Assembly: GCF_900120405.1 (NCBI RefSeq)
Contig: NZ_LT635493.1
Location: 150,427-214,426 of the forward strand
Direction of reading: 5' to 3'
Source of the DNA: Urinicoccus massiliensis
Lineage (GTDB): Bacteria; Bacillota; Clostridia; Tissierellales; Peptoniphilaceae
Length of the DNA stretch: 64,000 nucleotides
Part shown: in pieces, positions 21,292 through 56,728 of the stretch
Layout: every line of letters begins with the position of its first letter
Position numbering within the stretch: position 1 is the first letter of the stretch
Translations under genes and position numbers: made by a program
The notes under the pieces: generated by a model
Databases searched by the model: none
Told to the model about the DNA's origin: nothing
Seen by the model: the letters and a program-made list of their open reading frames with translations, nothing else

Positions 21292-21315
21292 AACTCCCTT
21301 GAGGGAGTTTTTTTA
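21291..21315. terminator. bidirectional terminator between convergent genes
   Basis: The stem AAACTCCC/GGGAGTTT with loop TTGA is flanked by A- and T-runs, so it can stop both the DUF4364 gene (plus) and the sortase gene ending at 21313 (minus). Confidence 0.85.
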
Positions 21316-22041
21316 TTGGGCTTGGACGGCCTGGATAACTAAACGTGTGTCGCCTGGAGAGCAGGTTTGGAGGGTGATAAAGTGGTCCAGCTTTTCCGGC
21401 AGGGGTCTTTTGAGGATGTTTCTTTTTTGGACATAGGCCCGGAAGTTTTCCAGGTCCTGGCCCTGGTAGCTGGTATGGCGGAAGGGGTCCCTGGGGTCTG
21501 CCTTGTAGACGGCAAAAATTTCATAGCGCTTGTGGCCCGCCAGGCTATCAATTTCTATATAGGGGGCCTGGCTGACAAAGTCTGGGTTTTCGTATTGGTG
21601 GAGGTCCTTGAAGCAGCCTCCCCTCTTGGCATTGTGGCCATAGATAATGGTGTTTTGGTCGGAAAAATCGGCCTGGTTGCGGTAGTCCATAAAGATGGCT
21701 CCAAAGGGGTTGGATTCTTTTTCATAGCTGTGGTAGAGGTAGTAGTCATTGTCCTTTCCTTGGACCACAGGATAGTTGATCTCGGTTTGGTCCAGGAAGA
21801 TCCAGGCCTTAATTTCAGGATAGGTCTTTTCCAGGGCCTGGATTTTTTCTATGGATTCTTGGTCCGGAGACTGGTTGGGAGCCTGGTCCTCTTTTTCCTG
21901 GTCCTGGACCTGGGCTTGGATTTTTTGAACTCCCCGGTCATAGGCTCCACCGGCCTGGTAGTAGGCCCCAATCTTGTAGAGGTTAAAGAGCAAAATCAAA
22001 AGTAAAATAACTTGTATAAGCTTTCTTGTTTTATCTTTCAT
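21313..22041 (-). CDS. srtB: class B sortase (first copy)
   Basis: A 242-residue membrane-anchored transpeptidase with an N-terminal membrane segment (about 8-25). The class B core shows INYPVVQGKDNDYYL, GAIFMDYRN, the catalytic His136 in IIYGHN, Cys227 in TLQTC and Arg233. It would join a sorting-motif protein to the cell wall. It is third in an operon after the MBOAT and SGNH genes, 22 bp downstream of the latter. No obvious substrate gene is adjacent, and it differs strongly from the second sortase at 42289. Confidence 0.92.
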   Translation of the reverse strand: MKDKTRKLIQVILLLILLFNLYKIGAYYQAGGAYDRGVQKIQAQVQDQEKEDQAPNQSPDQESIEKIQALEKTYPEIKAWIFLDQTEINYPVVQGKDNDYYLYHSYEKESNPFGAIFMDYRNQADFSDQNTIIYGHNAKRGGCFKDLHQYENPDFVSQAPYIEIDSLAGHKRYEIFAVYKADPRDPFRHTSYQGQDLENFRAYVQKRNILKRPLPEKLDHFITLQTCSPGDTRLVIQAVQAQ

Positions 22042-40911: not shown

Positions 40912-42261
40912 GGTTCTATAATAAATGTTGGGGTCCCCCTAGACTCCAACATTTATTTTTTGCCATAAAAAATGCACTTATCTCTTTTTTCCTTTACAAT
41001 AAAGTTACCACAACAAAATGAAAGGGTGAGATAAGTGCAAAACTATACTAACACAAATCTATTGAATTTAAAAGGTGTCTCTATTGACGAGGTGGTCTCT
41101 TTTGATGATCACATTGATGTAAAACTCCATTCTTTATACAAGGAGGGACTTTGTCCTGTTTGTGGTCATAAGACCTCTCGCATCCATGATTATCGTCTGC
41201 AAAGGATCCAACACACGCCTATTGGCTTGCGGAAGGTCTTTCTTTTTCTTCGGAAGAAGCGCTTTGTTTGTCCTCATTGTCAGAAGCGCTTTTATGAGTC
41301 TTTGGATTTCTTAGCTCCCTATTCTAGACGGACTAAGGATCTCCACTTCTTTATCCAAGACCAATTGAAGCAGGTCCGGTCTTTATCTTCTATTGCCAAG
41401 GACTTGGGTTTATCTTCCTCTTGTCTCACAAGCTATCTAAAGTTGGCTCCAAGGAGGCGGCCAAATCTTCCTCGGGTTTTAAGTATGGATGAGTTTAAGG
41501 GAAATGCTGGTGGGGATAAATACCAATGTATTTTAGTGGATCCAATCCATCACCAGGTACTGGATATTTTACCCTCTCGACGAAAAAAGGCTTTAATGGA
41601 CTACTTTTCTTCTTTTCCCAAGGAAGAACGAAGAAGGGTGAAGTATGTGGTTATGGATATGAGTCATCTTTTCTACGCCGTCTTAAAGGAATTCTTCCCT
41701 CAGGCAACCTTCATTGCGGATAAGTTTCATTTTGCCAGACAAGTCTTTTGGGCCTTAGAGAATGTCCGCAAGACACGACAAAAGACAAGGGATGCAAAGT
41801 ATCGTCTCTACTTTAAACGGTCCAAGTCCATCCTACGGAAAAAAGGCAGTCGGCTAAGCCCCGAAGAAAAAGAAAAGCTGGAACTAATGCTTTGGCAAGA
41901 CAAGGAAATCAAAGAAGCTTATCTCTTAAAAGAACGCTTTTATGACGTCTTAGATGCCTCCAGCAAAGAAGAAGCAAGACAGGCCTTAGATAAGTGGCTG
42001 TGGGTTGCTAAAGAAAGTGGATTAAAGGAATTTAAAGCCAGTATTCGGGCCTATGAAAACTGGAAAGAAGAAATCCTAAACGCCTTTTCCACAGGCATCA
42101 CCAATGGACAAACAGAAGGCTTTAACAACAAAATCAAAGTGATTAAACGGGTTTCCTATGGGTATCGGAATTTTGAGAACTTTAAGAGTCGCATTTTAAT
42201 GGTCTTTCGGGCATAAAGAAGGGGCGAGAATGAATCTCACCCCAACATTTGACAAAGAGCC
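40912..42261 (+). mobile_element. ISL3-family insertion sequence, copy 2
   Basis: 1350 bp, intact, with the same terminal repeats as copy 1. The 8-bp target duplication AGAAAAAA is at 40904-40911 and 42262-42269; it is the reverse complement of the copy 1 target. It is inserted at the end of the T-tract of the second sortase terminator and opposes its neighbours. It carries about a dozen mostly silent differences from copies 1 and 3, so it is the most diverged. Confidence 0.96.
41035..42216 (+). CDS. ISL3-family transposase, copy 2
   Basis: A 393-residue intact transposase with a GTG start. The protein is identical to copy 1; zinc finger, helix-turn-helix and DDE residues are all present. 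The silent differences from copy 1 (for example in the codons for HTPIGL and KQVRS) indicate purifying selection or conversion since divergence. Confidence 0.96.
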   Translation: MQNYTNTNLLNLKGVSIDEVVSFDDHIDVKLHSLYKEGLCPVCGHKTSRIHDYRLQRIQHTPIGLRKVFLFLRKKRFVCPHCQKRFYESLDFLAPYSRRTKDLHFFIQDQLKQVRSLSSIAKDLGLSSSCLTSYLKLAPRRRPNLPRVLSMDEFKGNAGGDKYQCILVDPIHHQVLDILPSRRKKALMDYFSSFPKEERRRVKYVVMDMSHLFYAVLKEFFPQATFIADKFHFARQVFWALENVRKTRQKTRDAKYRLYFKRSKSILRKKGSRLSPEEKEKLELMLWQDKEIKEAYLLKERFYDVLDASSKEEARQALDKWLWVAKESGLKEFKASIRAYENWKEEILNAFSTGITNGQTEGFNNKIKVIKRVSYGYRNFENFKSRILMVFRA

Positions 42262-42289
42262 AGAAAAAACCACCCCCTGGGGGATGGTT
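42262..42289 (-). terminator. terminator of the second sortase gene
   Basis: The stem AACCATCCCC/GGGGGTGGTT begins at the sortase stop codon and is followed by TTTTTTCT, the IS copy 2 target site. Confidence 0.8.
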
Positions 42290-43002
42290 CAAGCTTTCTC
42301 CACTACCGTCAGGACAAAAAGACGGACATTGGCCCTTTCATAAGTGCAGGTAACCAGGTTGATAATTTGGTCCTGGGGCTGCAAGTCATAGCCCGGGTCA
42401 TAGACCGCTTCTTTTTGCAAGCGCCGGTAAAAATCCAATCTTTTCTCATATGTAGAGAAATCCCTAGGGTCCAGGATGGTTTGGCCAGAAAGGATCCCAG
42501 CCAAAACCGCCCTGGTCTTGATGGTCTTTTCCCCCGTGTCCAGGTAAAATTCCAGACTCCTGGGTTGGGTCTTGAAAGACTTCAAGGACCCGAACATCAA
42601 GTCATTTTTCATCATATGGCCATAAATCAGGATAAAGGGGTCTTCTAAAGACCCATTCCGATAGTCCATAAAAATCGCCCCTAGGGCATTTCTCTCCCCA
42701 TTGGCCCCGGTGTGGAGGTAACGGTCGTTATCTCCGCCCCGGACCAGGGGATAGTCAATGGCCCCATCCTGGGACCGAATCCAGGCAAAAATGTCCGGAT
42801 TCACAGCCCGGAGCTTGGTTAAGTCCAAGCCCCCATCTTGAGACCCCGGACCCTTGGAAAAAGCCTGGGTCTCAAGACCAGAATAGGCCTCCATTGACTT
42901 TTTTTCATCCACTTGAATTCGCAGGTAGGAAAGGGTCTTGTAGGCAAAAAAGATGGCCACAAGAATAATTAAACTATTGATAAAAAGTCTCTTCCCTTTC
43001 AT
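42289..43002 (-). CDS. srtB: class B sortase (second copy), next to a giant LPKTG protein
   Basis: A 237-residue transpeptidase with an N-terminal membrane segment (about 7-24). The class B core has IDYPLVRGGDNDRYL, GAIFMDYRN, catalytic His129 in LIYGHM, Cys219 in LVTCTYE and Arg227. It is 9 bp downstream of the giant surface protein gene and shares its transcript, so that protein is its likely substrate. The LPKTG motif there is unusual for class B enzymes, which classically use NPQTN-type signals. Confidence 0.92.
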   Translation of the reverse strand: MKGKRLFINSLIILVAIFFAYKTLSYLRIQVDEKKSMEAYSGLETQAFSKGPGSQDGGLDLTKLRAVNPDIFAWIRSQDGAIDYPLVRGGDNDRYLHTGANGERNALGAIFMDYRNGSLEDPFILIYGHMMKNDLMFGSLKSFKTQPRSLEFYLDTGEKTIKTRAVLAGILSGQTILDPRDFSTYEKRLDFYRRLQKEAVYDPGYDLQPQDQIINLVTCTYERANVRLFVLTVVEKA

Positions 43003-43011
43003 AACCTGCTC

Positions 43012-46000
43012 CTAGTCTAGAAAATATTTTTTTCTCAAGAGGACCAGACCCACAAGAGCCAGTCCACTTAAATATACAAGGCCTAAGTCTTCTACAAGAC
43101 CCGTCTTTGGCAAATTGTTTGGAGTCCGTGGCTTACGCGGTTTACCCGGCGTGTCCCCAGGAATATCTTGAGGATACTTGGGTTTTTCCCCTGGAGTTTC
43201 CGGTGGTTTTCCCGGTTCTTCCGGTGGAGTTTCCGGTGGAGTTTTGGGTTCTTCCGGTGGATTGTGGGGTGGTCTTTCAGGCTTTTCAGTGTTTTCAGCC
43301 TTCCATACAAAACCAAGACCCTCATCGTCCTTCAGTTGCCAAACCTTACCTTCAAATCCAGCCATGGGAACTTCTTGAAGTTCATAGTCATACTTGACTT
43401 CTTCTACTTTAACATTACCCTTTTCATCAATGGTGGTTGTCTTCTTAAAGATGGGTAGGTGGTCCAGCATGTCGGTAAAGTCATTGGCCTTGTTGGCCGT
43501 TAATTGACCGACCTTAACCCGCTTCTTGACACCATTTTCTTCAATGATTTGGTAGATGTCAAACTTAGCTTCTAAGTTATCAAGATTCTTTAGCTTTTGG
43601 CCATGACCATCTAGGAATTCCTTGAAGACCTTGATAAAGCGTTCCTTTTCAAGGTAGACAGTAACTGTGTTGAAACCTTCTACTTTGTTTTCAAAGGCCA
43701 TTTCAGCCCCTGAATCCAATAGTTTCTTTAGGTCAAAGAAGTCTTTTGCATCACCAAGTTCATGCTTTTCTCCGTCTGTGCCAATATAGAAAACTTTTCC
43801 GTCTTCAATTTTAGCATCCAGGTTTGGAACCATCATGGGTAGGATAAATTCAGGAGCTTCACCGGCATTAACGCCGCCATCTGCTGATTTGACAAAGATA
43901 CCTGTAACATCTTTTAACTTTAAGCCTGCTTTTTCAAGCTCTTCTTGAGTGTATTGGTTTTTACCAATTTGATACTTGATGATAAATTTATCTTTGTATT
44001 TGTCTTGAACTTGGACAAAGTCATTGAGAACTGGCTTAAAGCCCTTTCTTCCTTCAAATAGGTCTTTAAGTTCAACTTTTATAAGCTTTTCACCTACACG
44101 GCTGGTATCTTCGATATCAGTCTCAGCCTTATAGACAAGCTTGTAGTCAAATTTGTCGCCAAATTTCAACTTAGCATTGCCCTTGAACCATTCCTTGGCA
44201 GTTTTTCCATTGATAATTTTTCCTTTTTCATCATAGATTCTCAGAAACTTATCAACGCTGCCTTCCTTATCCTTTTTGATGGTAATATCTGTGCTTGCAT
44301 AGTAAACTTTTCCATTGTCTTTAAAGATAGCATGGTTGGTATAAATTTCACCAATCCCATTTCCTTTACCAATATAGTCTTTAAATTCTTTCTTGTCCAC
44401 TAGGACATTGTTTAGCTTAAAGGTAAAGTGCTTTGTAGTTCCAGTAGGTGCATCAAAGGCTGGTAGCCAAGCGATAACAGCTTGAACTTTTTCGCCATCT
44501 TTAACTGCCTTATCATAGGCTTTTTGCAATAATTCTTTTTGCTTTGGATCTTTTAAGCCATCGATATAAGCTTTTAGGTCTTCAACATATTGGTACTTGA
44601 TGCCTGCTTTCCACTTATTAACGGCTTCTTCATTTTCAAATGATCCACCGCTAATTAATTTGTCAGAATGAACTTTAAGTTCAATTTTTTCACCATTAGA
44701 AAGCTTAAAGATATTTGGTAGGATGTCCATAATCAAGGTGCCATCTTGGTATCTGTAGTGACCATTGGCTGAATAGTCTCCGTCTTTGATTTGGCTCGTC
44801 TTACCAGTTTCTGCATCATAGATTTGCTTTTCTGTCTTGGTCATTTGGTTGACGCTGACACCAATGGTAAAGTTGATCTTTTGGTCTTTTTCAGAAAGAT
44901 CGATATTCTTTTTATCAGACTCTTTCTTTACCTCTGGATGTTCTTCATTCGGTTTATCGTCTGTTTCTGGATAATCGATGGTTATGTCATCGTTGGCCTT
45001 AAAGCCGTCGTCACCCTTAGCATTCTTGCCAGGTGTTGGAGGCTCTTGGTCTCCACCGGACATTTCAATACACTTGCCAATGATACCAGAATGACAGATT
45101 TTTTCCTTCCAGTTGTTGTCTTCGCCATAGATGCCAGGACCTTGCTTTTGCTTGGGTAGCTTGTATTGGGCAAAGTTTTTAAAGGTTGGTCTGTTGTAGC
45201 CATCCTTAATCATATAGTAGGCAATTAAGTCAATTGGCTTGTTGCCATACTTTTGATTGAGAGTTTCTTTTACTTCTTTATCTGTTACAAGATCAGTAAT
45301 TTTTACAAGCTTTGTCTTAGGATTTCCATCCTTATCTTTTACAGGATTTCCATCCTTATCTTTTACAGGATTTCCATCCTTATCCTTTTCTTCCGTTAGG
45401 ATATACAAAGGATTGATTCGGCCACCTTTTGGATCCATCAGTGGCTTACCATCAATGGATAAGTCTCCTGATTCAAGTTCATTGCCTTTTTTAATAGTGT
45501 ACTTGTTCCAAGCAAATTTTTCTTTTTCGCCACTTGCTGTAACAAGTGGAACAATCTTAGACTCATACTTTTCGTTCAGTCTTCTGTAGGCTTCTTCCAT
45601 AACCTTAACATAGGATTCTTCTTTTGTATTCCAGTTATCCTTATCAAATCCATCTATTGTTTTAGTGAATTTTTCATCATTTACTACTTCCTTAATAAAC
45701 TTGTTAAGGTACATATCCTTATTTGTCATTGGCTTGCCGAATTCATCGGTGTAAGGAATGTCCACATCTGGAACAATAACGGAAGTGATGCCAAACTTCT
45801 TGGTTCTTTGGGGTGTCATAGCACCACCGATAACCATGTTGGGTTTTAATTCAACCCGGATAGCGTTGAAACGCATATCGTCAAACTTGTAGTCGCCCTT
45901 GCTTGGATCAAGATACTTAAGATCCATGGTGTCCATTGCCTTAACCATGGCATTTCTGATATCTGCTAATTCTTCTGCAATTGCATCTGGAGTTTTATCC

Positions 46001-49000
46001 TTGCCATTTGCATCTTTTGTAGAAACTTTTTTAAGTCTTTCTTCAAAGAGATGGCTCAAAGTTCCAAAACAGTCACTTCTTGCATCATAGGTTTGTATTA
46101 TGAACTTTTTAAAAGATTCTTGGAAGGCTTTTTTTGTTGCTTCTGCACTATCTTTAGCTTCAGCCTTAAAGTACTTGTCAGCATGTTCAATAAAGTCGTT
46201 ACGTTGTTTTTCGTAAGCTTCTTGGACTGGACTGTAGAATTTATTATCTTTAGCTTTGTCATCTTTAGAATACTCTTTATTCTCTTGATAGAAGGCCTTG
46301 AGAACCTTAATTCTAATTTGTCCCTTTTCTGTGTCACGTGTCAGTTTAACAGTAAATGTCTTATCTTTTGGTTCTTTTGGTCCAAGTGTAAGTTCAGTTT
46401 CTGTCTTATCATCTGTAACAGCTTCTGTGTTATAACCTAGAGCATCTTCAATTTGCTTTCTTGTAATCATAAAGTCTTTTCCAACAGCTATAAAGTCGCC
46501 ATCAAGATAGCCCCTGCTTACACCAAAACGAATGTTATCGATTTGGTCTAAGAAGAAGTATTGGTCAGTGCCTTTGAAGGTTGCTTTATCAAGAGCTTCT
46601 TCTTTTTCCTTTAGAGTCTCTTTCGCTTCTTCAAGAGCTTTCTTATTAGCTTCACTATTATTAGCTTTATAGGCTTCTTCAGCTTCTTCTACTGCTTTTT
46701 TGGCAGCATCATATGCTTCTTGAGCTTGTGTTGGGTCTTTTTTATCTTTAGCCTTTTTCCAGTTTTCTTTTGTGTCATTGATGATAATTTCATCATAGAC
46801 TAGACGGTTGTCCATATTGTAGTCTTCTACTACGATGGAGGTGTCTCTGTCTTCTGGGAATAACAAGTCGCCTTTTTTCGATGTAAAGCCGATTTCCCAA
46901 AGTAGAGACCGCATTTTGTTTACTTCCTCTTCTTTGATAACTTGTTCATCTTTGTCTTGGATGACAACTTCGCCTTCATTGTTTAAGGCAAATTGTGCTC
47001 CCTCAAAGCGGTTTTTCAATTCTTTTTGGATAGTCTCAAGAAGTTTTAACTTATTTAGAGTCTCTTCATCTACCTTCTTCTTTTCGTCTTCAGTTTTTCC
47101 GTCATATACTTCTTTTTCTTTTAATAAAGGTTTCAGTAAGTTATCTCTTTGACGGTCAGTGGAATCCCTATAGAAGATATTGAAGAAGTTGTAGTTTGGA
47201 ATACCATATTTTTCAAATTCTTCTGGTTTGTTCTTAAAGAATCTAGGATTTGTAATGTCATTGGTCTTTAGTGTAAAGTACCTAGTTACTGTCTTAGAAT
47301 TTTCTTCTCCAAAAATAGAAACTTCTGTGTTGTTTTGGTTAGGATCCTTATAATAAGCTTTCACTTGAGCTTTGGCACTGTAAACAATGTCCTTACCAGC
47401 TAGGAAGCCAGGATACCTAAAGGCAAATTTTGCATTTTGCACTGCGTCAAAAATATCTGTTTCATTGGTGATAACTTTTTTAGCCTTATCTCCTTCGCCT
47501 AAAGTTTGAACAACTGCTTGACTATCGAAGCCTGCAATAATATTTGCATCTTTACCATCGGCACTTTCTAGGTAAGTTTGAGCACCTGAACCTTTTTTAA
47601 CATAAGTTCTGCGTTCAACTTCAAAGTATTCCTTGGGATCAAGGCTGCCATAGTATCTTTGAATCTTGTCATCAGTAATTACCTTGTTGCCGTTATCATA
47701 AGTTTCTATGGTTTTTCTTTCAAGCTTTTCAGACTTTTTAAGGTCTTGGTAGTACTTGTCACCAATAACGTCTTTTTTGTCTATTGATACAAATTGATCT
47801 TTTTCCTTGTCATAGTAGTAGTGACCAACTTTGGCTGTATGACCATCATTGACAATGTAGTTTGTATTGTCAACAAAGATTGTTTCTTTGTTTTGTCCAA
47901 CTGTGATGGTTCTATCACCATAGGTGACTTTGCAAACATTGCCGCTTTTTTCTTTTTTGGCTTCTATCTTTAATGCCTTCCCTTTCTCATCTTTCTTAAT
48001 AGCATGAGTAAAGGTGTAATTATCGCCATCTTTTTCAACAGTAATGTTATTCATGAGACGACCAAACTTGTCAATCAGGTTTAGACCTGATTTGTATTCT
48101 AAGCCATCAACGATATAGTATTCAACTTTACCATCTTTAGTAACTTCTTTAAATACTGCTTTTTCAACTGGTCTTGCCCCAGCAGTTCCTTCTGTAACTT
48201 CTTTCCCAGTTCCATCAACCCAAGCTTTGTCTGTTCTTTTTAAGCCGGTTTGATTGATAAGGTAGCGATATTCGTCTTTTCCAATTTTTTGGAAAATTTT
48301 ATCTTCTACGATGGTTCCACCGTAGGAAGTTTTATCTTTGCCTTTTTCTTTAACTGTAACTTGTGTTCCTTCAAAAGTTGGTGTAACAGTTGGATCTGCC
48401 TTGCCTTCTTTGTCATTAGAAACATTGCCTTCGTAAACTTCATTTTCCTTTTTATAGGAAATTAAGTCGTTACCACGGACTTCATAGGTTCTGCCGTTAG
48501 CAGTAACTTTTCCTTCTTTGAAGTCTCCAAGCTTTTCGTAAGAACCATCAGCATTCTTTTTCCAAAGGCTTTGAACCTTATGGTCCTTGTCCAGTCTAAC
48601 TTGGTAAGTTACTGCATTAGCTCCTTCACCAAGTGTACCTTCAAGAACAGTTGTTGTTGTTATATCATGTTCTTTACCATTTTCATCAAGGTATTTTTTA
48701 CCTTCAGTTGATTCTAGGATAGCATCTGTAAGTTTTTTGTTTTCAATGGGTTGCCCATCGTACATTAGATTGCCTTTTTCATCTACAGAGAAGTTTTTCT
48801 TATTAAACTTTTCTAAGTTTAATTTTAAGGTATACGTTCCATTTCCATTGTCATGGTAGTTAAGTCCTGACTTATGAATAAAGTCTGCAAAGTTTCCATT
48901 AAAGTTTTTTGGTGCAGTAATGGTAATGTCCACAGACGATAAGGGTAATGACCTTCCATTGGCTGAGTTCACTAAGACGTCGTCAATGTAGGCATTGTTC

Positions 49001-50646
49001 TTTTTGAGTTCTACAAAGAAATCATGGAGCTCTTTTGTGTTTTGGTCGACAATATTGTCCTCAGTTGCTCCTCCATCAATTTCTGGAATGTCCTCTTTTT
49101 CACCTGGTTTTTCTTTACCTGGTTTTTGGAGTCCCTTTCCGTTGAGGTTGGTGTAGTCTTCGTAGCCCTTCTTGGTAATTAAGAAGGTAGTTTCAACTTT
49201 ATTGGCACCACCAGTACCTTCAAGCGTAAGTTTAAATCCTTCGTGGAAGGATGCCCTAAAGCCAGGCATATTGAACTTCAACTGGGCAATCCCAAAGTTT
49301 TGGTTTGCTTCTGTTGTAGTAAATGAATAAGTCCCGTCACCATTGTCTTTCAGTTCAACTGGTTTTCCATTTAAAAATACCAGGCTCTTTAAATTATCCT
49401 TCTCTACTTTTGGTAGGGTTGGATTTCCTACTTTTTCCAAATTTTTAATTGTAAAAGTAAATTCTTTCGGCTGGTCATTCTTATTAACTTGGAATAAGAG
49501 GTCTAGGCCAGTATCGTCAGGAATGTAATAAGTCTCCTTATTCTTCAATGGTTCCTTATTAGCTTTTCCATTGCTGTCTAGTGGGTAAATATAAATTTCA
49601 GGATCACCTTTTGCATAATTTGGAGTGACTTTACCTGATCTAATCCCCTCAATTAAAGCTTTTTCAGCATCCTTAAAGGCTTGAACGAGTTTGTCCAAGT
49701 CTTCTTTTTTAAGTGGATCTTTACTGGGGTCAAGAGCAGCTTCTAAGGCTTTTTTTGCCTTATCATAGGTATCGTAAAGATTTCCCTCATCCTTTGTAAC
49801 TCCAGGAACATAGGGTGTTTCTTGAAGCTTGTTTACAGCGTCTTTTTCATCCCCTGTAAGGGCTCTTGGCGGTGTAAATTTTCCCAAAAGTTCATTGAAG
49901 TCATTAACATCTTTTGTTGTTAAAGTTCCTTTTTCCAACTTTTCATCAAGTTCTTTTTTCTTTTCCTTGATTTGGTTATACAGGGCAATTTGATCCTTGT
50001 CTGTTAGGCGCTTGGCTGTATCATCTGCATACTTATCGGATCCAGTTTCTTCAATCTTCTTAAAGAGCTTTTCATTGTATTCCTTTTGAAGTGCAGCTTC
50101 TGTTTTAGTGTCTTTTGCAGCGTTTGCCTTGTCAATTTGCTCTTGCAAGTCGCTTAAGCCTTTATCCCCTTTAGGGTCCACTTGTGGCTTGTCTTTTTTG
50201 TCTTCCCCTTTTGGATCAGATGCTTGCCCTTGACCTGGGTCCGGATTAGCCGGACTTGGATTCTCTTGGGAACCTGGGGCCGGGACCGGATTGGCCTGTC
50301 TACTTTGGCCAGGGGCCTTGGCTTCTTCTGAAGGTGTCGGCTGACTGCTGGCTGCTTCTACCGCTTTTGGGTTTTCCCCTTTTTCGGTCTCGTCGGGCTT
50401 ACTTACTCGATTTTCGTCAGGCTCCTTAGAAGATGGATCTGCCATGGGCTTTTGGTCTTCCGGAGTCCCTCCTAGGTCTTGCTTGTTACCAGATCCTGGC
50501 TGGGTTTGGATTGGAGAGGCTGTATGAATAGATGGACTTGTAGGCATCAGGGCCTCTTTCCCCTCTTCAGGGTTGGCATAAATGGTCCCGGCTAAGCATA
50601 GGGTTAAAAAGCTTGTCGTTAATACTTGCCTCAATTTTTTCTTCAT
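43012..50646 (-). CDS. giant LPKTG-anchored surface protein (2544 residues)
   Basis: It has a signal peptide (residues 1-24, cleavage after IYA), a Pro/Glu/Lys-rich low-complexity stretch to about 170, and a long repetitive-looking but largely unrecognised body. The body has a charged Ala/Glu/Lys helical segment near 1300-1360 and three KDKDGNPx repeats near 1755-1775. A CnaB-like domain (about 2330-2450) is followed by a proline-rich wall spanner, LPKTG at 2512-2516, a hydrophobic helix and RKK. It should be covalently wall-anchored; adhesion is inference. Four cysteines are present in the mature chain, two as CHSGIIGKC. Confidence 0.93.
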   Translation of the reverse strand: MKKKLRQVLTTSFLTLCLAGTIYANPEEGKEALMPTSPSIHTASPIQTQPGSGNKQDLGGTPEDQKPMADPSSKEPDENRVSKPDETEKGENPKAVEAASSQPTPSEEAKAPGQSRQANPVPAPGSQENPSPANPDPGQGQASDPKGEDKKDKPQVDPKGDKGLSDLQEQIDKANAAKDTKTEAALQKEYNEKLFKKIEETGSDKYADDTAKRLTDKDQIALYNQIKEKKKELDEKLEKGTLTTKDVNDFNELLGKFTPPRALTGDEKDAVNKLQETPYVPGVTKDEGNLYDTYDKAKKALEAALDPSKDPLKKEDLDKLVQAFKDAEKALIEGIRSGKVTPNYAKGDPEIYIYPLDSNGKANKEPLKNKETYYIPDDTGLDLLFQVNKNDQPKEFTFTIKNLEKVGNPTLPKVEKDNLKSLVFLNGKPVELKDNGDGTYSFTTTEANQNFGIAQLKFNMPGFRASFHEGFKLTLEGTGGANKVETTFLITKKGYEDYTNLNGKGLQKPGKEKPGEKEDIPEIDGGATEDNIVDQNTKELHDFFVELKKNNAYIDDVLVNSANGRSLPLSSVDITITAPKNFNGNFADFIHKSGLNYHDNGNGTYTLKLNLEKFNKKNFSVDEKGNLMYDGQPIENKKLTDAILESTEGKKYLDENGKEHDITTTTVLEGTLGEGANAVTYQVRLDKDHKVQSLWKKNADGSYEKLGDFKEGKVTANGRTYEVRGNDLISYKKENEVYEGNVSNDKEGKADPTVTPTFEGTQVTVKEKGKDKTSYGGTIVEDKIFQKIGKDEYRYLINQTGLKRTDKAWVDGTGKEVTEGTAGARPVEKAVFKEVTKDGKVEYYIVDGLEYKSGLNLIDKFGRLMNNITVEKDGDNYTFTHAIKKDEKGKALKIEAKKEKSGNVCKVTYGDRTITVGQNKETIFVDNTNYIVNDGHTAKVGHYYYDKEKDQFVSIDKKDVIGDKYYQDLKKSEKLERKTIETYDNGNKVITDDKIQRYYGSLDPKEYFEVERRTYVKKGSGAQTYLESADGKDANIIAGFDSQAVVQTLGEGDKAKKVITNETDIFDAVQNAKFAFRYPGFLAGKDIVYSAKAQVKAYYKDPNQNNTEVSIFGEENSKTVTRYFTLKTNDITNPRFFKNKPEEFEKYGIPNYNFFNIFYRDSTDRQRDNLLKPLLKEKEVYDGKTEDEKKKVDEETLNKLKLLETIQKELKNRFEGAQFALNNEGEVVIQDKDEQVIKEEEVNKMRSLLWEIGFTSKKGDLLFPEDRDTSIVVEDYNMDNRLVYDEIIINDTKENWKKAKDKKDPTQAQEAYDAAKKAVEEAEEAYKANNSEANKKALEEAKETLKEKEEALDKATFKGTDQYFFLDQIDNIRFGVSRGYLDGDFIAVGKDFMITRKQIEDALGYNTEAVTDDKTETELTLGPKEPKDKTFTVKLTRDTEKGQIRIKVLKAFYQENKEYSKDDKAKDNKFYSPVQEAYEKQRNDFIEHADKYFKAEAKDSAEATKKAFQESFKKFIIQTYDARSDCFGTLSHLFEERLKKVSTKDANGKDKTPDAIAEELADIRNAMVKAMDTMDLKYLDPSKGDYKFDDMRFNAIRVELKPNMVIGGAMTPQRTKKFGITSVIVPDVDIPYTDEFGKPMTNKDMYLNKFIKEVVNDEKFTKTIDGFDKDNWNTKEESYVKVMEEAYRRLNEKYESKIVPLVTASGEKEKFAWNKYTIKKGNELESGDLSIDGKPLMDPKGGRINPLYILTEEKDKDGNPVKDKDGNPVKDKDGNPKTKLVKITDLVTDKEVKETLNQKYGNKPIDLIAYYMIKDGYNRPTFKNFAQYKLPKQKQGPGIYGEDNNWKEKICHSGIIGKCIEMSGGDQEPPTPGKNAKGDDGFKANDDITIDYPETDDKPNEEHPEVKKESDKKNIDLSEKDQKINFTIGVSVNQMTKTEKQIYDAETGKTSQIKDGDYSANGHYRYQDGTLIMDILPNIFKLSNGEKIELKVHSDKLISGGSFENEEAVNKWKAGIKYQYVEDLKAYIDGLKDPKQKELLQKAYDKAVKDGEKVQAVIAWLPAFDAPTGTTKHFTFKLNNVLVDKKEFKDYIGKGNGIGEIYTNHAIFKDNGKVYYASTDITIKKDKEGSVDKFLRIYDEKGKIINGKTAKEWFKGNAKLKFGDKFDYKLVYKAETDIEDTSRVGEKLIKVELKDLFEGRKGFKPVLNDFVQVQDKYKDKFIIKYQIGKNQYTQEELEKAGLKLKDVTGIFVKSADGGVNAGEAPEFILPMMVPNLDAKIEDGKVFYIGTDGEKHELGDAKDFFDLKKLLDSGAEMAFENKVEGFNTVTVYLEKERFIKVFKEFLDGHGQKLKNLDNLEAKFDIYQIIEENGVKKRVKVGQLTANKANDFTDMLDHLPIFKKTTTIDEKGNVKVEEVKYDYELQEVPMAGFEGKVWQLKDDEGLGFVWKAENTEKPERPPHNPPEEPKTPPETPPEEPGKPPETPGEKPKYPQDIPGDTPGKPRKPRTPNNLPKTGLVEDLGLVYLSGLALVGLVLLRKKYFLD
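45320..45386 (-). repeat. three tandem 24-bp repeats inside the giant gene
   Basis: The unit encodes KDKDGNPV and is repeated three times with almost no base change. This marks a slippage-prone segment that could change protein length by eight residues per unit. Confidence 0.85.
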
Positions 50647-50672
50647 TTCTCTCCCTCCTTTCTTTTTATATT

Positions 50673-50689
50673 TAGGGTAAGATACCCTA
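50673..50689 (-). promoter_or_regulatory. palindrome at the start of the giant gene transcript
   Basis: TAGGGTA and TACCCTA form a perfect 7-bp inverted repeat with a 3-nt centre. It lies just downstream of the -10, so it would be at or very near the RNA 5' end, or act as an operator in DNA. Confidence 0.55.
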
Positions 50690-50696
50690 TCTCTAT

Positions 50697-50725
50697 ATTT
50701 TATACTTTATTGGTTCACATTACAA
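50697..50725 (-). promoter_or_regulatory. promoter of the giant surface protein-sortase operon
   Basis: The -35 TTGTAA (50720-50725) and -10 TAAAAT (50697-50702) are separated by 17 bp. A strong AAAGGAGGGAG ribosome binding site precedes the ATG at 50646. Confidence 0.7.
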
Positions 50726-50784
50726 TTCTTTTAGGAAAATTGTTTGCTTTTATGAAAAATTGTTCTTTTTTTGACTTGGGTCAT

Positions 50785-50817
50785 AAAAAAACTCCGGAGC
50801 CTCAGGGGCTTCGGAGC
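50785..50817 (-). terminator. terminator of the CmpB-like gene
   Basis: The stem CTCCG-AGCC/GGCT-CGGAG with single-base internal mismatches and a loop CCTGA is followed by seven T. It isolates the giant-protein operon from upstream transcription. Confidence 0.85.
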
Positions 50818-50835
50818 TTGCTTCCTATCCAATTT

Positions 50836-51765
50836 TTAATGGATTTCTTCCAAGTGGAGCCGGCGACGTCGGCGGTTGAGGATTTCTTTTTTGTCTTGGA
50901 TTTCTTCCTTCAAGGCCTGGATGGCTTCCGGATCTTGTCCTTCCTCCAAGAGCTGAATCAGGTCTCCTTGCCTTTGGATGATTTGGGTTTTTAAGAGGTT
51001 GGTAGGTTCCAGGTCGGCCTTGAGTTGGGCTTTTTCAAGGTCGATGTTTTCTTCAATGGCCTCTTTAATCCGCTTGCTTTCCAGGTCAAATTCTCTGAGT
51101 TTGGCCTTAATCCGGTCTGTCCGGTATTTTACATCGGGATAGGCGTTGATAAAGCGCCGGTAAAGGATGTTTTTATTGGTTACCAGGACCTTCATTTCTT
51201 GCCGGATGGCCTGGGTGTTGTCGGCCTTGGATCCTTCTACATTGACCTTGACCAGCTTCATGACGAAGTAGGACATCAAGAGGTCCACCAGCATAACCAG
51301 GACAATGGCAAGGGCCAGGCCTTGTTTCCAAACTAAGGGCATCAAGGCCAGCCCGTCCATAATCCAGGGTTCAAAGACTCGGTCTATGGCCAGACCTCCC
51401 AGGCCGAATAGGACCAGGTTGCCAATCCAAATTCTCCCGTTGAGGTTCATGGGCCGGTTGCTATAGTCCCACCACCTGGCATGGTATCTTGCCTCCAAAA
51501 AGTAAGAAACCAGGTATTCCACCAGGCCGCAAACCAGGAGGGAAATTAAAAAGACCAGGGCTGGGGAATGTTCTCGGAAGTTTTGGGTCACCAGGATGAT
51601 GAGGATGGACCCCAGGCCGTAGATGGGACAATAGGGGCCAATGAAAAAGCCCCGGTTGATAAAGCGGCCAAAGTCTATGAATTTTAAGCTAACTTCTATC
51701 ATCCAACCCAGGACTGAAAAGCTAAAAAAGAGGATGATGAGGTTGGTGAGATTTTCAGATGGCAT
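50836..51765 (-). CDS. CmpB-like putative ABC transporter permease
   Basis: The start is set at the ATG at 51765 (309 residues), preceded by AAGGAGG. Five or so membrane helices fill residues 1-180, with [25 protein letters not shown] and the [16 protein letters not shown] signature of the ABC_trans_CmpB family. The last 120 residues are a cytoplasmic charged coiled coil. Function is unproven; no ATPase gene is adjacent. Confidence 0.85.
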
Positions 51766-51795
51766 GTTTTCCTCCTTGGGATTCGGGAATAGAAG

Positions 51796-51826
51796 AATCG
51801 ACATGGGCCTAGGCTCCATGTCGATT
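51796..51826. terminator. strong hairpin between hppA and the CmpB-like gene
   Basis: AATCGACATGG/CCATGTCGATT with a CCTAGG core gives an almost perfect 31-base hairpin. T-rich sequence follows on both sides. It probably terminates hppA transcription. Confidence 0.7.
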
Positions 51827-51855
51827 TTAATTTTCTTATGGTCTTGGGGTCTTTC

Positions 51856-53853
51856 TTATAAGAGAATTCCTCCAAAGTGGATGAATAGGGGTGCAAAGAC
51901 CAAGGATACAACAGTGATTAATTTAATCAAGATATTCAAGGATGGGCCAGAGGTATCTTTAAAGGGGTCACCTACTGTATCGCCTGTTACGGCTGCCTTG
52001 TGGGCTACAGTTCCTTTTCCTCCATGGGCTCCACCTTCGATGTATTTCTTTGCATTATCCCAAGCTCCACCGGCATTGGACATAAAGATGGCCATAAGAA
52101 CCCCTGTAATGAGGGCTCCTGCTTGGAGACCACCCAGGGCTTCTGTACCGATTAAAACGCCAACTAGGATTGGAACGATTACGGCAATCATTCCGGGAAC
52201 GATCATTTCTTTCAGGGCTGCTCCTGTGGAAATGTCTACGCATTTTGCGTATTCCGGTGCTGCTTTTCCTTCCATAATGCCGGGAATTTCTTTGAATTGA
52301 CGACGAACTTCGTCAATCATGGCTCCGGCAGCATTTCCTACTGCTGACATGGTTAGGGCTGAGAAGGCAAAGGGAAGCATCCCTCCGATGAAGGTCCCAG
52401 CGATAACGGCGGGTTTAGAAATATCGATTCCTGTCAAGCCTGTGGTTTGAATATAGGATACGAAAAGGGATAGGGCTGTCAGGGCTGCGGACCCAATGGC
52501 AAATCCCTTACCAATGGCTGCTGTGGTGTTTCCAACAGAGTCTAGGGAGTCTGTAATTTCCCGTACTTCTTCTGGTAGTTCACACATTTCGGCAATCCCA
52601 CCGGCATTGTCGGCAATGGGGCCGTAGGCATCTACAGCAATGGTGGATGCGGTGGTGGCCAACATTCCTACTGCAGCCAGGGAAATCCCGTAAAGGCCGT
52701 CAATGGCTTCTGTTGTTCCACCAGACAGGTTGTAGGCCAGGATGATTCCAATGGCCAGGACAATGATGGGTCCAACAGTGGACATCATCCCAACGGATAG
52801 GCCGGCAATGATGTTGGTAGAGTCTCCAGTAACGGATTCTTTGGCAATGTGACGAACGGGTTTGTATTGGTCTGCTGTGTAGTATTCTGTAATTTTAGAA
52901 ATAATCAAGCCTACGCAAACTCCTACGATAACGGGAATAAAGAATTTTAAGTCCCCGAAGAAGTGGTTGGCCAAGATGGCAGATACGATAATGGTGATGA
53001 TACTGGCAATATAGGTTCCCATGTTCAGGGCTTTTTGTGGGTTTTTGTCTCCACGAACGAAGAACATGGATACAACAGAGGCCAGGATCCCTACTGCTGC
53101 AATGCCGATTCCGTAAGATACGCCGGCTTCAGCATGGGATACAACTCCCAGGGTAATCACGGACAAAAGGGCTCCTACATAGGATTCGAATAAGTCGGCT
53201 CCCATTCCGGCAACGTCCCCTACGTTGTCTCCAACGTTATCGGCAATAACAGCCGGGTTTCTTGGGTCGTCTTCTGGGATTCCTGCTTCAACCTTTCCTA
53301 CCAGGTCAGCTCCAACGTCGGCTGCCTTGGTGTAGATTCCTCCACCTACCCGGGCAAAAAGGGCGATGGATGAAGCTCCTAGGGAAAATCCGGTGATGAT
53401 ATTTGCATCTTGGAAGATATAATATAAGATACTAATTCCGATAATTCCAAGTCCAACAACGCAAAGTCCCATAACCGCACCACCTGAAAAGGCAATGTCT
53501 AGGGCTTTTCCCATTCCATGTTGGTAGGCTGCATTGGCTGTCCGAACGTTGGCCTTTGTGGCTACGTTCATGCCGATATAACCTGCACAAACACTAAATA
53601 GGGCTCCGATTAAAAAGCAAACGGCTGTTTTAAATGAAATGCCGATACCTAGGATAATAAATAAAGCGACAACAAAAATAATAAGAGATCGGTATTCTCT
53701 CTTTAAGAATGCCATTGCCCCATCGTGGATATGACCGGCAATTTCCTTCATCCGGTCGCTGCCTTCGTCTTGCTTGCCTACAAAGGATGCCTTGTATAGA
53801 GCAAAAACGAGAGCAAGTACACCCACTATGGCTGCAATAATTAAAATGTTCAT
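51856..53853 (-). CDS. hppA: membrane-bound ion-translocating pyrophosphatase, K+-dependent
   Basis: A 665-residue protein with about 15-16 membrane helices. The pyrophosphate site is in [49 protein letters not shown] near 180-230. [21 protein letters not shown] near 450 has alanine where K+-independent enzymes carry lysine, so K+ dependence is expected. Glu in DLFESY is the position seen in Na+-pumping members; Na+ rather than H+ transport is inference. It follows secG by 27 bp. Confidence 0.95.
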
Positions 53854-55378: not shown

Positions 55379-56728
55379 GGCTCTTTGTCAAATGTTGGGG
55401 TGAGATTCATTCTCGCCCCTTTCTTATGCTCGAAAGACCATTAAAATGCGACTCTTAAAGTTCTCAAAATTCCGATACCCATAGGAAACCCGTTTAATCA
55501 CTTTGATTTTGTTGTTAAAGCCTTCTGTTTGTCCATTGGTGATGCCTGTGGAAAAGGCGTTTAGGATTTCTTCTTTCCAGTTTTCATAGGCCCGAATACT
55601 GGCTTTAAATTCCTTTAATCCACTTTCTTTAGCAACCCACAGCCACTTGTCTAAGGCCTGTCTTGCTTCTTCTTTGCTGGAGGCATCTAAGACGTCATAA
55701 AAGCGTTCTTTTAAGAGATAAGCTTCTTTGATTTCCTTGTCTTGCCAAAGCATTAGCTCCAATTTTTCTTTTTCTTCGGGGCTTAGCCGACTGCCTTTTT
55801 TCCGTAGGATGGACTTGGACCGTTTAAAGTAGAGACGATACTTTGCATCCCTTGCCTTTTGTCGTGTCTTGCGGACATTCTCTAAGGCCCAAAAGACTTG
55901 TCTGGCAAAATGAAACTTATCCGCAATGAAGGTTGCCTGAGGGAAGAATTCCTTTAAGACGGCGTAGAAAAGATGACTCATATCCATAACCACATACTTC
56001 ACCCTTCTTCGTTCTTCCTTGGGAAAAGAAGAAAAGTAGTCCATTAAAGCCTTCTTTCGTCGAGAGGGTAAAATATCCAGTACCTGGTGATGGATTGGAT
56101 CCACTAAAATACATTGGTATTTATCCCCACCAGCATTTCCCTTAAACTCATCCATACTTAAGACCCGAGGAAGATTTGGCCGCCTCCTTGGAGCCAACTT
56201 TAGATAGCTTGTGAGACAAGAGGAAGATAAACCCAAGTCCTTGGCAATAGAAGATAAAGACCGGACCTGTTTTAATTGGTCTTGGATAAAGAAGTGGAGA
56301 TCCTTAGTCCGTCTAGAATAAGGAGCTAAGAAATCCAAAGACTCATAAAAACGCTTCTGACAATGAGGACAAACAAAGCGCTTCTTCCGAAGAAAAAGAA
56401 AGACCTTCCGCAAGCCAATGGGCGTATGTTGGATCCTTTGCAGACGATAATCATGGATGCGAGAGGTCTTATGCCCACAAACAGGACAAAGTCCCTCCTT
56501 GTATAAAGAATGGAGTTTTACATCAATGTGATCATCAAAAGAGACCACCTCGTCAATAGAGACACCTTTTAAATTCAATAGATTTGTGTTAGTATAGTTT
56601 TGCACTTATCTCACCCTTTCATTTTGTTGTGGTAACTTTATTGTAAAGGAAAAAAGAGATAAGTGCATTTTTTATGGCAAAAAATAAATGTTGGAGTCTA
56701 GGGGGACCCCAACATTTATTATAGAACC
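55379..56728 (-). mobile_element. ISL3-family insertion sequence, copy 3
   Basis: 1350 bp, intact, inverted relative to copies 1 and 2. The 8-bp target duplication TCTTTTCT is at 55371-55378 and 56729-56736. It is inserted 11 bp past the rplQ stop region and before the likely operon terminator. It is nearly identical to copy 1. Confidence 0.96.
55424..56605 (-). CDS. ISL3-family transposase, copy 3
   Basis: A 393-residue intact transposase with a GTG start, differing from copies 1 and 2 by one residue (RQKARD instead of RQKTRD near residue 252). It is in the same direction as the ribosomal operon, so read-through could reach it, though the left-end terminator and start-site hairpin would oppose that. 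Confidence 0.96.
   Translation of the reverse strand: MQNYTNTNLLNLKGVSIDEVVSFDDHIDVKLHSLYKEGLCPVCGHKTSRIHDYRLQRIQHTPIGLRKVFLFLRKKRFVCPHCQKRFYESLDFLAPYSRRTKDLHFFIQDQLKQVRSLSSIAKDLGLSSSCLTSYLKLAPRRRPNLPRVLSMDEFKGNAGGDKYQCILVDPIHHQVLDILPSRRKKALMDYFSSFPKEERRRVKYVVMDMSHLFYAVLKEFFPQATFIADKFHFARQVFWALENVRKTRQKARDAKYRLYFKRSKSILRKKGSRLSPEEKEKLELMLWQDKEIKEAYLLKERFYDVLDASSKEEARQALDKWLWVAKESGLKEFKASIRAYENWKEEILNAFSTGITNGQTEGFNNKIKVIKRVSYGYRNFENFKSRILMVFRA

Follow-up and report, generated by a model that had tools for sequence, protein, structure and literature searches.

A very large LPKTG surface protein and the class B-type sortase encoded directly downstream of it form a conserved gene pair in Urinicoccus massiliensis and its relatives

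Class B sortases are described as recognising (N/S/P)PXTG (PMC13257024, introduction; this and all other records given by PMC number are cited from excerpts of their text). The SrtB of Clostridioides difficile recognises (S/P)PXTG and apparently left LPXTG and NPQTN uncleaved in vitro (PMC4155245), and the signal of Bacillus anthracis IsdC is NPKTG (PMC3208642). An LP-type precedent exists in AbpA/SrtB of oral streptococci, where a class B sortase was shown to anchor the LPKTS substrate encoded next to it (PMC4974636). A window of 64,000 nucleotides from Urinicoccus massiliensis (RefSeq assembly GCF_900120405.1, contig NZ_LT635493.1, positions 150,427 to 214,426, forward strand) was analysed here for a gene pair consisting of a 2544-residue surface protein ending in an LPKTG signal, hereafter the giant, and a class B-type sortase, hereafter the paired sortase.

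The pair was compared with each of these systems. In AbpA-SrtB (NF040525, SrtB_LPKTxSAVK), as in the window, a class B gene lies downstream of the gene of a protein with an LP motif, there an adhesin; however, the AbpA motif is followed by a tail of three residues, whereas the giant ends in a full hydrophobic and charged tail, and the paired sortase scored 42.4 bits against the NF040525 model, whose cut-off is 200. C. difficile SrtB is, like the enzyme of two Fenollaria species described below, the only sortase of its genome, of class B and with several predicted substrates, but its motif differs from the [LIV]P[KQ]TG found with the paired sortases. The isd-type SrtB of Staphylococcus aureus and B. 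anthracis is likewise of class B and encoded near its substrate; in contrast, the motif of the window pair starts with Leu/Ile/Val, and none of the neighbouring window open reading frames (ORFs) resembled a haem-uptake gene by eye. Spy0129 of Streptococcus pyogenes (3psq), a class B enzyme with a surface-protein substrate in its own locus, polymerises EVPTG pilins (PMC3019223), but 3psq was only eighth among the 15 PDB matches of the paired sortase, which also fell outside the clade containing the member nearest to 3psq.

Both genes lie on the minus strand, the giant at 43012–50646 (ATG start, precursor of 287.5 kDa) and the sortase at 42289–43002 (237 residues, ATG start), separated by 9 bp. 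The initial annotation, made from the sequence alone, had described exactly this arrangement, and the ORFs confirmed it. The shared promoter that it proposed fared worse: a weak sigma-70-like candidate site at 50697–50725 (-) (TTGTAA-17-TAAAAT) had 9 of 12 matches and was not above background, the scan listing 26 such sites where shuffled sequence would give 21.3. The arrangement of the two genes is operon-like, and because of the 9-bp gap they are probably transcribed as a single unit. A Shine-Dalgarno-like AAGGAGGG read from the sequence precedes the giant (50653–50660, -), and the ribosome-binding-site-like AGGAG of the sortase (43009–43013, -) overlaps the TAG stop of the giant, which suggests coupled translation.

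The features of an LPXTG wall protein were all found in the giant. Residues 1–24 (50575–50646, -) form a signal-peptide-like stretch, judged by eye for its cleavage site and by a hydropathy of 1.18. The only LPKTG of the protein, at residues 2512–2516 (43099–43113, -), follows a proline-rich stretch read from the sequence (43114–43281, -) and precedes a hydrophobic stretch and charged tail ending in RKKYFLD (43015–43098, -), the best 19-residue mean hydropathy within the last 45 residues being 1.84. As a DNA pattern, [LF]PKTG occurred six times in the 2.09 Mb genome, compared to 11 times for a reversed control, and only the occurrence in the giant lay at a protein end built like a sorting signal. 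The giant missed the Pfam Gram_pos_anchor cut-off (12.4 vs 20 bits), and the four PF00746 matches of its own genome were all below cut-off. A misread frame as the source of the motif was ruled out by the 11 of 11 pairs described below.

The paired sortase matched the Pfam Sortase model with 27.5 bits (cut-off 26.6) and the class B model TIGR03064 with E 7.5e-38 (130.2 bits), the latter being matched at E 1e-5 or better by all 23 sortases scanned. Sortase B structures headed its 15 matches among PDB sequences (E 3.8e-26). H129, C219 and R227 were invariant across the 23 aligned sortases, with LVTC, a TLXTC-type signature, at 216–219. By similarity, the enzyme is thus best described as class B-type. 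The surprise expressed by the initial annotation at a class B enzyme beside LPKTG was fair in view of the published class B motifs, AbpA/SrtB notwithstanding.

The pair was then searched for in 130 genomes of its family, presumably Peptoniphilaceae, its own included, using separate profiles for the giant and the paired sortase. The giant profile matched 12 of the 130 and the sortase profile 11, the latter at 312–391 bits with a next best match of 151.5. All 11 genomes with a sortase of this clade, representing eight genera, also carried a giant (Fisher p 4e-15, a test that ignores kinship), and the looking for relatives that the initial annotation had proposed thus found the same pair. Chance adjacency was rejected, as the same 11 of 130 genomes hold both the giant and the sortase clade. 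Eight of the 11 genomes had helped to build both profiles; the other three (G103, G144 and G076; G numbers are our handles for genomes and L numbers for loci) held adjacent pairs with IPKTG, VPKTG and LPQTG, respectively. The sortase lay directly 3' of the giant in the pairs, with gaps of 1–19 bp, while the outer genes differed. All 11 paired giants ended in [LIV]P[KQ]TG, and the giants measured ~2400–2600 residues. The twelfth giant (G035, Khoudiadiopia) ended in NPSTG and had no sortase of the paired clade.

In a scan of named genomes, relatives of the giant turned up at nine loci. An adjacent sortase and an [LI]PKTG tail were found in F. timonensis, F. massiliensis, P. nemausensis, A. coxii, E. 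peruensis and one Tissierellia metagenome-assembled genome (MAG), whereas the distant giants of Khoudiadiopia and of a Eubacteriales MAG, 28% identical over the best segment, had no adjacent sortase and ended in NPSTG and NPKTG. In a further MAG (G010), one contig ends within the giant and another starts with an LPQTG tail directly before the sortase; we take this tail to be part of the split giant.

The eight paired sortases in a tree of 27 sortases grouped together (100/99), and the ten in a tree of 37 rows formed one clade (100/100); in the larger tree both window sortases were read from DNA, and the grouping was the same. The window's second sortase fell with sortases beside APQTF, PPKTF, APKTY and APQTY proteins (91/83 in the 37-row tree), the frame in G003 ending nine residues past APQTF. 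Sortases beside NPKTL or near NPPTL formed a separate group (100/99), and the G034b sortase, beside IPRTG, neighboured the paired clade. In genus g25, a sortase clade adjoins VPTG/IPTG pilin-like proteins, and its one tested member was nearest to Spy0129 (3psq, E 1e-50); these loci would mean that the family also has pilus-like systems of class B. Several g25 loci (L117, L120, L121, L126 and others) were viewed, and the pilin-like frames were complete in L117 and L126 (344 and 353 residues). Sortase clade and neighbouring motif thus mostly agree, the exception being G005a.

To compare the signals within genomes, a sorting-signal profile of 19 tails was run on 13 genomes with a threshold of E 1e-3, giving 39 matches, of which 38 were read as tails. 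The tails of other proteins in G016 and G107 (both Fenollaria) and G104 (Ezakiella) were [LI]PKTG in 6 of 6 cases. In G000, G002, G062, G063, G076 and G144, [LIV]P was found in 0 of 15 other tails, which read APQTG, APQTY, SPQTG, PPQTG, PPKTG, NPKTY, NPKTG or NPKTL. No further tail was found at E 1e-3 in G103 and G010. G001, a congener of the window organism that does not carry the pair, had [LIV]P in 0 of 6 tails, all being APQT[GYF], and G108 had no match at E 1e-3 (best E 0.003).

Sortases were counted with PF04203. One match was found in G016 and G107, two in G000, G103, G104, G062, G063 and G144, at least three in G002, G010, G001, G035 and G076, and none in G108; G001 and G063 each had an additional match at E 0.04–0.05, which these counts leave out. 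In the U. massiliensis genome itself, which is 98.98% complete, there were two matches, at 42289–43002 and 21313–22041, both also matching TIGR03064, and no class A sortase was detected by the PF04203 search. The second sortase (21313–22041, -), the only other one detected, is class B-type and belongs to another clade in the tree; it adjoins what appears by eye to be an MBOAT acyltransferase gene, with no sorting-signal protein beside it.

Fenollaria showed the simplest situation. In G016 and G107 the paired sortase is the only sortase detected, and 5 of 5 tails are [LI]PKTG, two of them belonging to the giants. The third Fenollaria (G108) has no PF04203 match, and there a giant-like N-terminal piece adjoins the C-terminal 54 residues of the sortase (L150 12708–12940). 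This remnant is the pattern that one deletion would leave, and the pair was lost jointly. Two Fenollaria sortases (loci L036 10001–18744 and L033 10001–18601) are 80% identical and their giants 46%, the F. timonensis giant being nearer to that of G076 (49%). F. timonensis grouped with G076 in the giant tree (100/98) and with F. massiliensis in the sortase tree (100/99), with deep nodes unsettled in both; these groupings suggest that in Fenollaria the giant changes fast or is exchanged beside a stable sortase. The frame of the F. massiliensis giant is interrupted (L036 16120–16195), by decay or sequencing error. The NCBI taxonomy places Fenollaria under Eubacteriales incertae sedis. In Ezakiella (G104), 4 of 4 tails are IPKTG, and in E. 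peruensis the giant is immediately preceded by the gene of a 942-residue IPKTG protein (L037 6136–8964), which looks CnaB-like by eye in its end region and is likely a second substrate.

We propose that the pair serves wall anchoring of the giant, probably an adhesin, by its co-encoded sortase through a clade-specific signal, with a rough probability of 0.78. The estimate is based on gene order, conservation, co-occurrence, one joint loss, the match of clade and motif and the predicted Ig-like domains of the stalk. The co-encoded sortase is very probably the anchoring enzyme of the giant. The membrane sortase would cleave the secreted giant within LPKTG, after Thr and before Gly, and join it to the peptidoglycan, so that it would project from the cell surface as a long stalk of several domains. 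The paired branch of the family would read [LIV]P[KQ]TG, whereas other class B signals start with a small or polar residue, and what appears to be a mismatch with the textbook would then look like a clade-specific signal. In the U. massiliensis genome the giant would be the only recognised substrate of the paired sortase, the second sortase probably serving APQT[GY] proteins, while in Fenollaria the paired sortase seems to serve every detected wall protein.

Several observations weigh against this proposal. The TIGR03064 score of the sortase lies below the NCBI equivalog cut-off (130.2 vs 153.75 bits), and the enzyme is therefore called class B-type only by similarity. The genome counts follow ancestry and amount to eight genera rather than 130 independent trials. 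The sortase of G005a adjoins an IPKTG protein yet falls outside the paired clade. In the sorting-signal profile, 11 of the 19 tails have Leu/Ile/Val before Pro (nine from paired genomes, two from G034), so that other signals may escape it, and one match, in G076, was unreadable as a tail. A second, untyped sortase is present in the Ezakiella genomes G103 and G104, and their IPKTG proteins can therefore not be assigned. Adhesion rests on fold similarity from middling models (mean pLDDT 69.2 and 69.8, pTM 0.45 and 0.40, described below), and as the list of fold matches also contains Ig-like regions of integrins, with Z up to 9.6, the fold match may be partly generic.

The nearest competing explanation overlaps with the proposed anchoring and differs on exclusivity only, the enzyme acting on [LIV]PxTG signals in general and lying beside one large substrate by coincidence. 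Its position as the only sortase detected in two Fenollaria species with 5 of 5 [LI]PKTG tails, together with the 4 of 4 IPKTG tails of Ezakiella G104, points in this direction; against it, the giant carries the only [LIV]P tail in the six genomes where the others gave 0 of 15, and we regard it as possible but doubtful. The dedicated pairing suggested by the initial annotation stood as far as a conserved adjacent pair in eight genera is concerned, but not as an exclusive one, the same signal being present on other Fenollaria and Ezakiella proteins. Adjacency could also be without function, with the other sortase anchoring the giant and the neighbour acting elsewhere or on nothing. The second sortase of the U. 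massiliensis genome and the apparent failure of C. difficile SrtB to cleave LPXTG (PMC4155245) would fit; but the giant and the sortase clade occur in the same 11 genomes, two Fenollaria species with [LI]PKTG giants have no other detected sortase, and the third lost both jointly, which makes this explanation highly improbable.

Finally, the sortase could act as a polymerase that, as class B Spy0129 does with streptococcal pilins, links giant monomers into a fibre, and it could also anchor that fibre. The initial annotation had raised a fibre as well, and we consider it improbable. A YPK-like lysine motif is typical of sortase-assembled pilins, although other pilin types may lack it, and [YF]PK was absent from 13 giants, two of them incomplete. 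The giants are unlike small pilins in length, and to our knowledge a subunit of ~290 kDa would be several times bigger than any known pilin. A sortase-assembled pilus would have two or more subunits sharing a signal; only one LPKTG sorting-signal protein was found in the U. massiliensis genome, and no second sorting-signal protein stood beside the pair in the viewed loci, E. peruensis excepted. These observations are set against the ladders yielded by AbpA-SrtB, another adjacent class B pair (PMC4974636), and against a midpoint-rooted tree joining the paired clade and G034b to the VPTG/IPTG pilin-neighbour clade (96/91), whose tested member has Spy0129 as its nearest structure (3psq; PMC3019223). 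Were giants of this size joined head to tail, [LIV]P[KQ]TG would mark a fibre-building class B branch beside the Spy0129-like one, which is unlikely.

As for the architecture of the giant, the whole protein gave nothing above cut-off against Pfam, NCBIfam and PDB sequences. Two structure models covered residues 335–1305 (mean predicted local distance difference test, pLDDT, 69.8; predicted template modelling score, pTM, 0.40) and 1250–2449 (69.2 and 0.45). An Ig-like domain was predicted at residues 1901–2125 (44272–44946, -; pLDDT mostly 70–85; conserved K1908, D1974 and N2104), a second one at residues 2126–2333 with approximate limits (43648–44271, -; conserved K2133, D2164, D2195 and N2326), and a CnaB-like domain at residues 2330–2455 (43282–43659, -; conserved K2342, E2425 and N2452). 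Residues 1901–2125 aligned with pilin and antigen I/II domains in VIA-align at Z 10–11 (root-mean-square deviation, rmsd, 2.8–3.6 A), and residues 1901–2276 with the C-terminal domains of antigen I/II at Z ~11 (rmsd ~10 A over two domains). The best Foldseek match was to the PrgB Ig-like domains (E 8e-6, with low TM-scores of 0.11 and 0.18). With its predicted domains, the giant would resemble the C-terminal stalk of antigen I/II and Enterococcus PrgB in having tandem Ig-like domains before a wall anchor, but it had no sequence match to the domains of either in Pfam or PDB sequences. Domain searches and structure prediction, which the initial annotation had put forward, thus left the whole protein without a match and gave a predicted Ig-like C-terminal stalk.

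K2342, E2425 and N2452 were kept in 9 of 9 sequences covering them, window included. The Lys/Asp/Asn set (K1908, D1974, N2104) and the Lys/Glu/Asn set (K2342, E2425, N2452) sit where isopeptide domains, such as the C-terminal Ig-like ones of antigen I/II, carry such residues, and isopeptide bonds may be present in the stalk. Cna_B (PF05738) was found weakly in 5 of 9 homologous segments (best E 0.0067) but not in the window segment; for the CnaB-like domain of the initial annotation there are weak matches in relatives and conserved residues, and the window protein itself has no Pfam match. A profile of residues 2315–2458 matched C5a peptidase (E 0.0022–0.023) and riboflavin synthase (0.55) in the PDB, and profiles of residues 335–1305 and 1893–2128 gave no match to PDB sequences. 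Pfam over ten full or partial giants gave one clear Cna_B (E 2.6e-13), Invasin_D3 in two (best 0.0011), DUF1090 and DUF3253 in one each and Gram_pos_anchor in one (0.085); the giant with the clear Cna_B is taken to be that of F. timonensis, which has an extra domain in that region. No trusted match was obtained for the N-terminal half by Foldseek or VIA: its model matched generic strings of Ig domains, headed by complement at E 3.4e-5, and p53-like folds, with VIA Z of at most 7.9, and these were not used. Antigen I/II proteins also carry A and P repeats with a V domain; no known domain emerged in the N-terminal half of the giant.

Further features of the locus were recorded. A terminator-like hairpin and T run lies 3' of the sortase (42260–42288, -; listed by the scan as 42280–42260, the hairpin by eye), the scan having found 21 terminators versus 15.2 expected. 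The pair region is flanked by two near-identical 393-residue transposase genes at 41035–42216 (+) and 55424–56605 (-), identical in 1167 of 1182 bases, and a third copy, at locus L029 2599–3780, adjoins an APQTG surface protein. Positions 45000–53000 of the window had no match in plasmid records. The guanine-cytosine (GC) content at fourfold sites was 0.29 for the giant against 0.71 for the neighbouring sortase, and in 10 of 10 pairs the giant had the lower value of the two; codon use of the giant was nearer to that of EF-Tu than the sortase's was in three of four genomes, G076 being the opposite. The low GC of the giant was not taken as a sign of foreign origin, as expression-linked codon use fits as well as transfer does.

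Some elements are already known: a class B gene after the gene of an LP-motif adhesin (PMC4974636), a lone class B enzyme (PMC4155245) and a class B pilus enzyme (PMC3019223). Apparently new are a conserved sortase clade tied to a family of very large proteins, its full [LIV]P[KQ]TG signal and its standing as the only sortase of two species; no paper on this pair was found by title in a search of mainly open-access literature, with subscription journals mostly outside it. The giant represents a conserved surface protein family that had no above-cut-off match in the whole-protein Pfam, NCBIfam and PDB searches. Sortase class is commonly used to predict which proteins an enzyme attaches, and this family seems to have class B-type enzymes in several branches that differ in their signals, one branch using the LPxTG-like signal normally ascribed to class A. 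A clean testing ground would be Fenollaria, where two species have a single detected sortase and the third has none.

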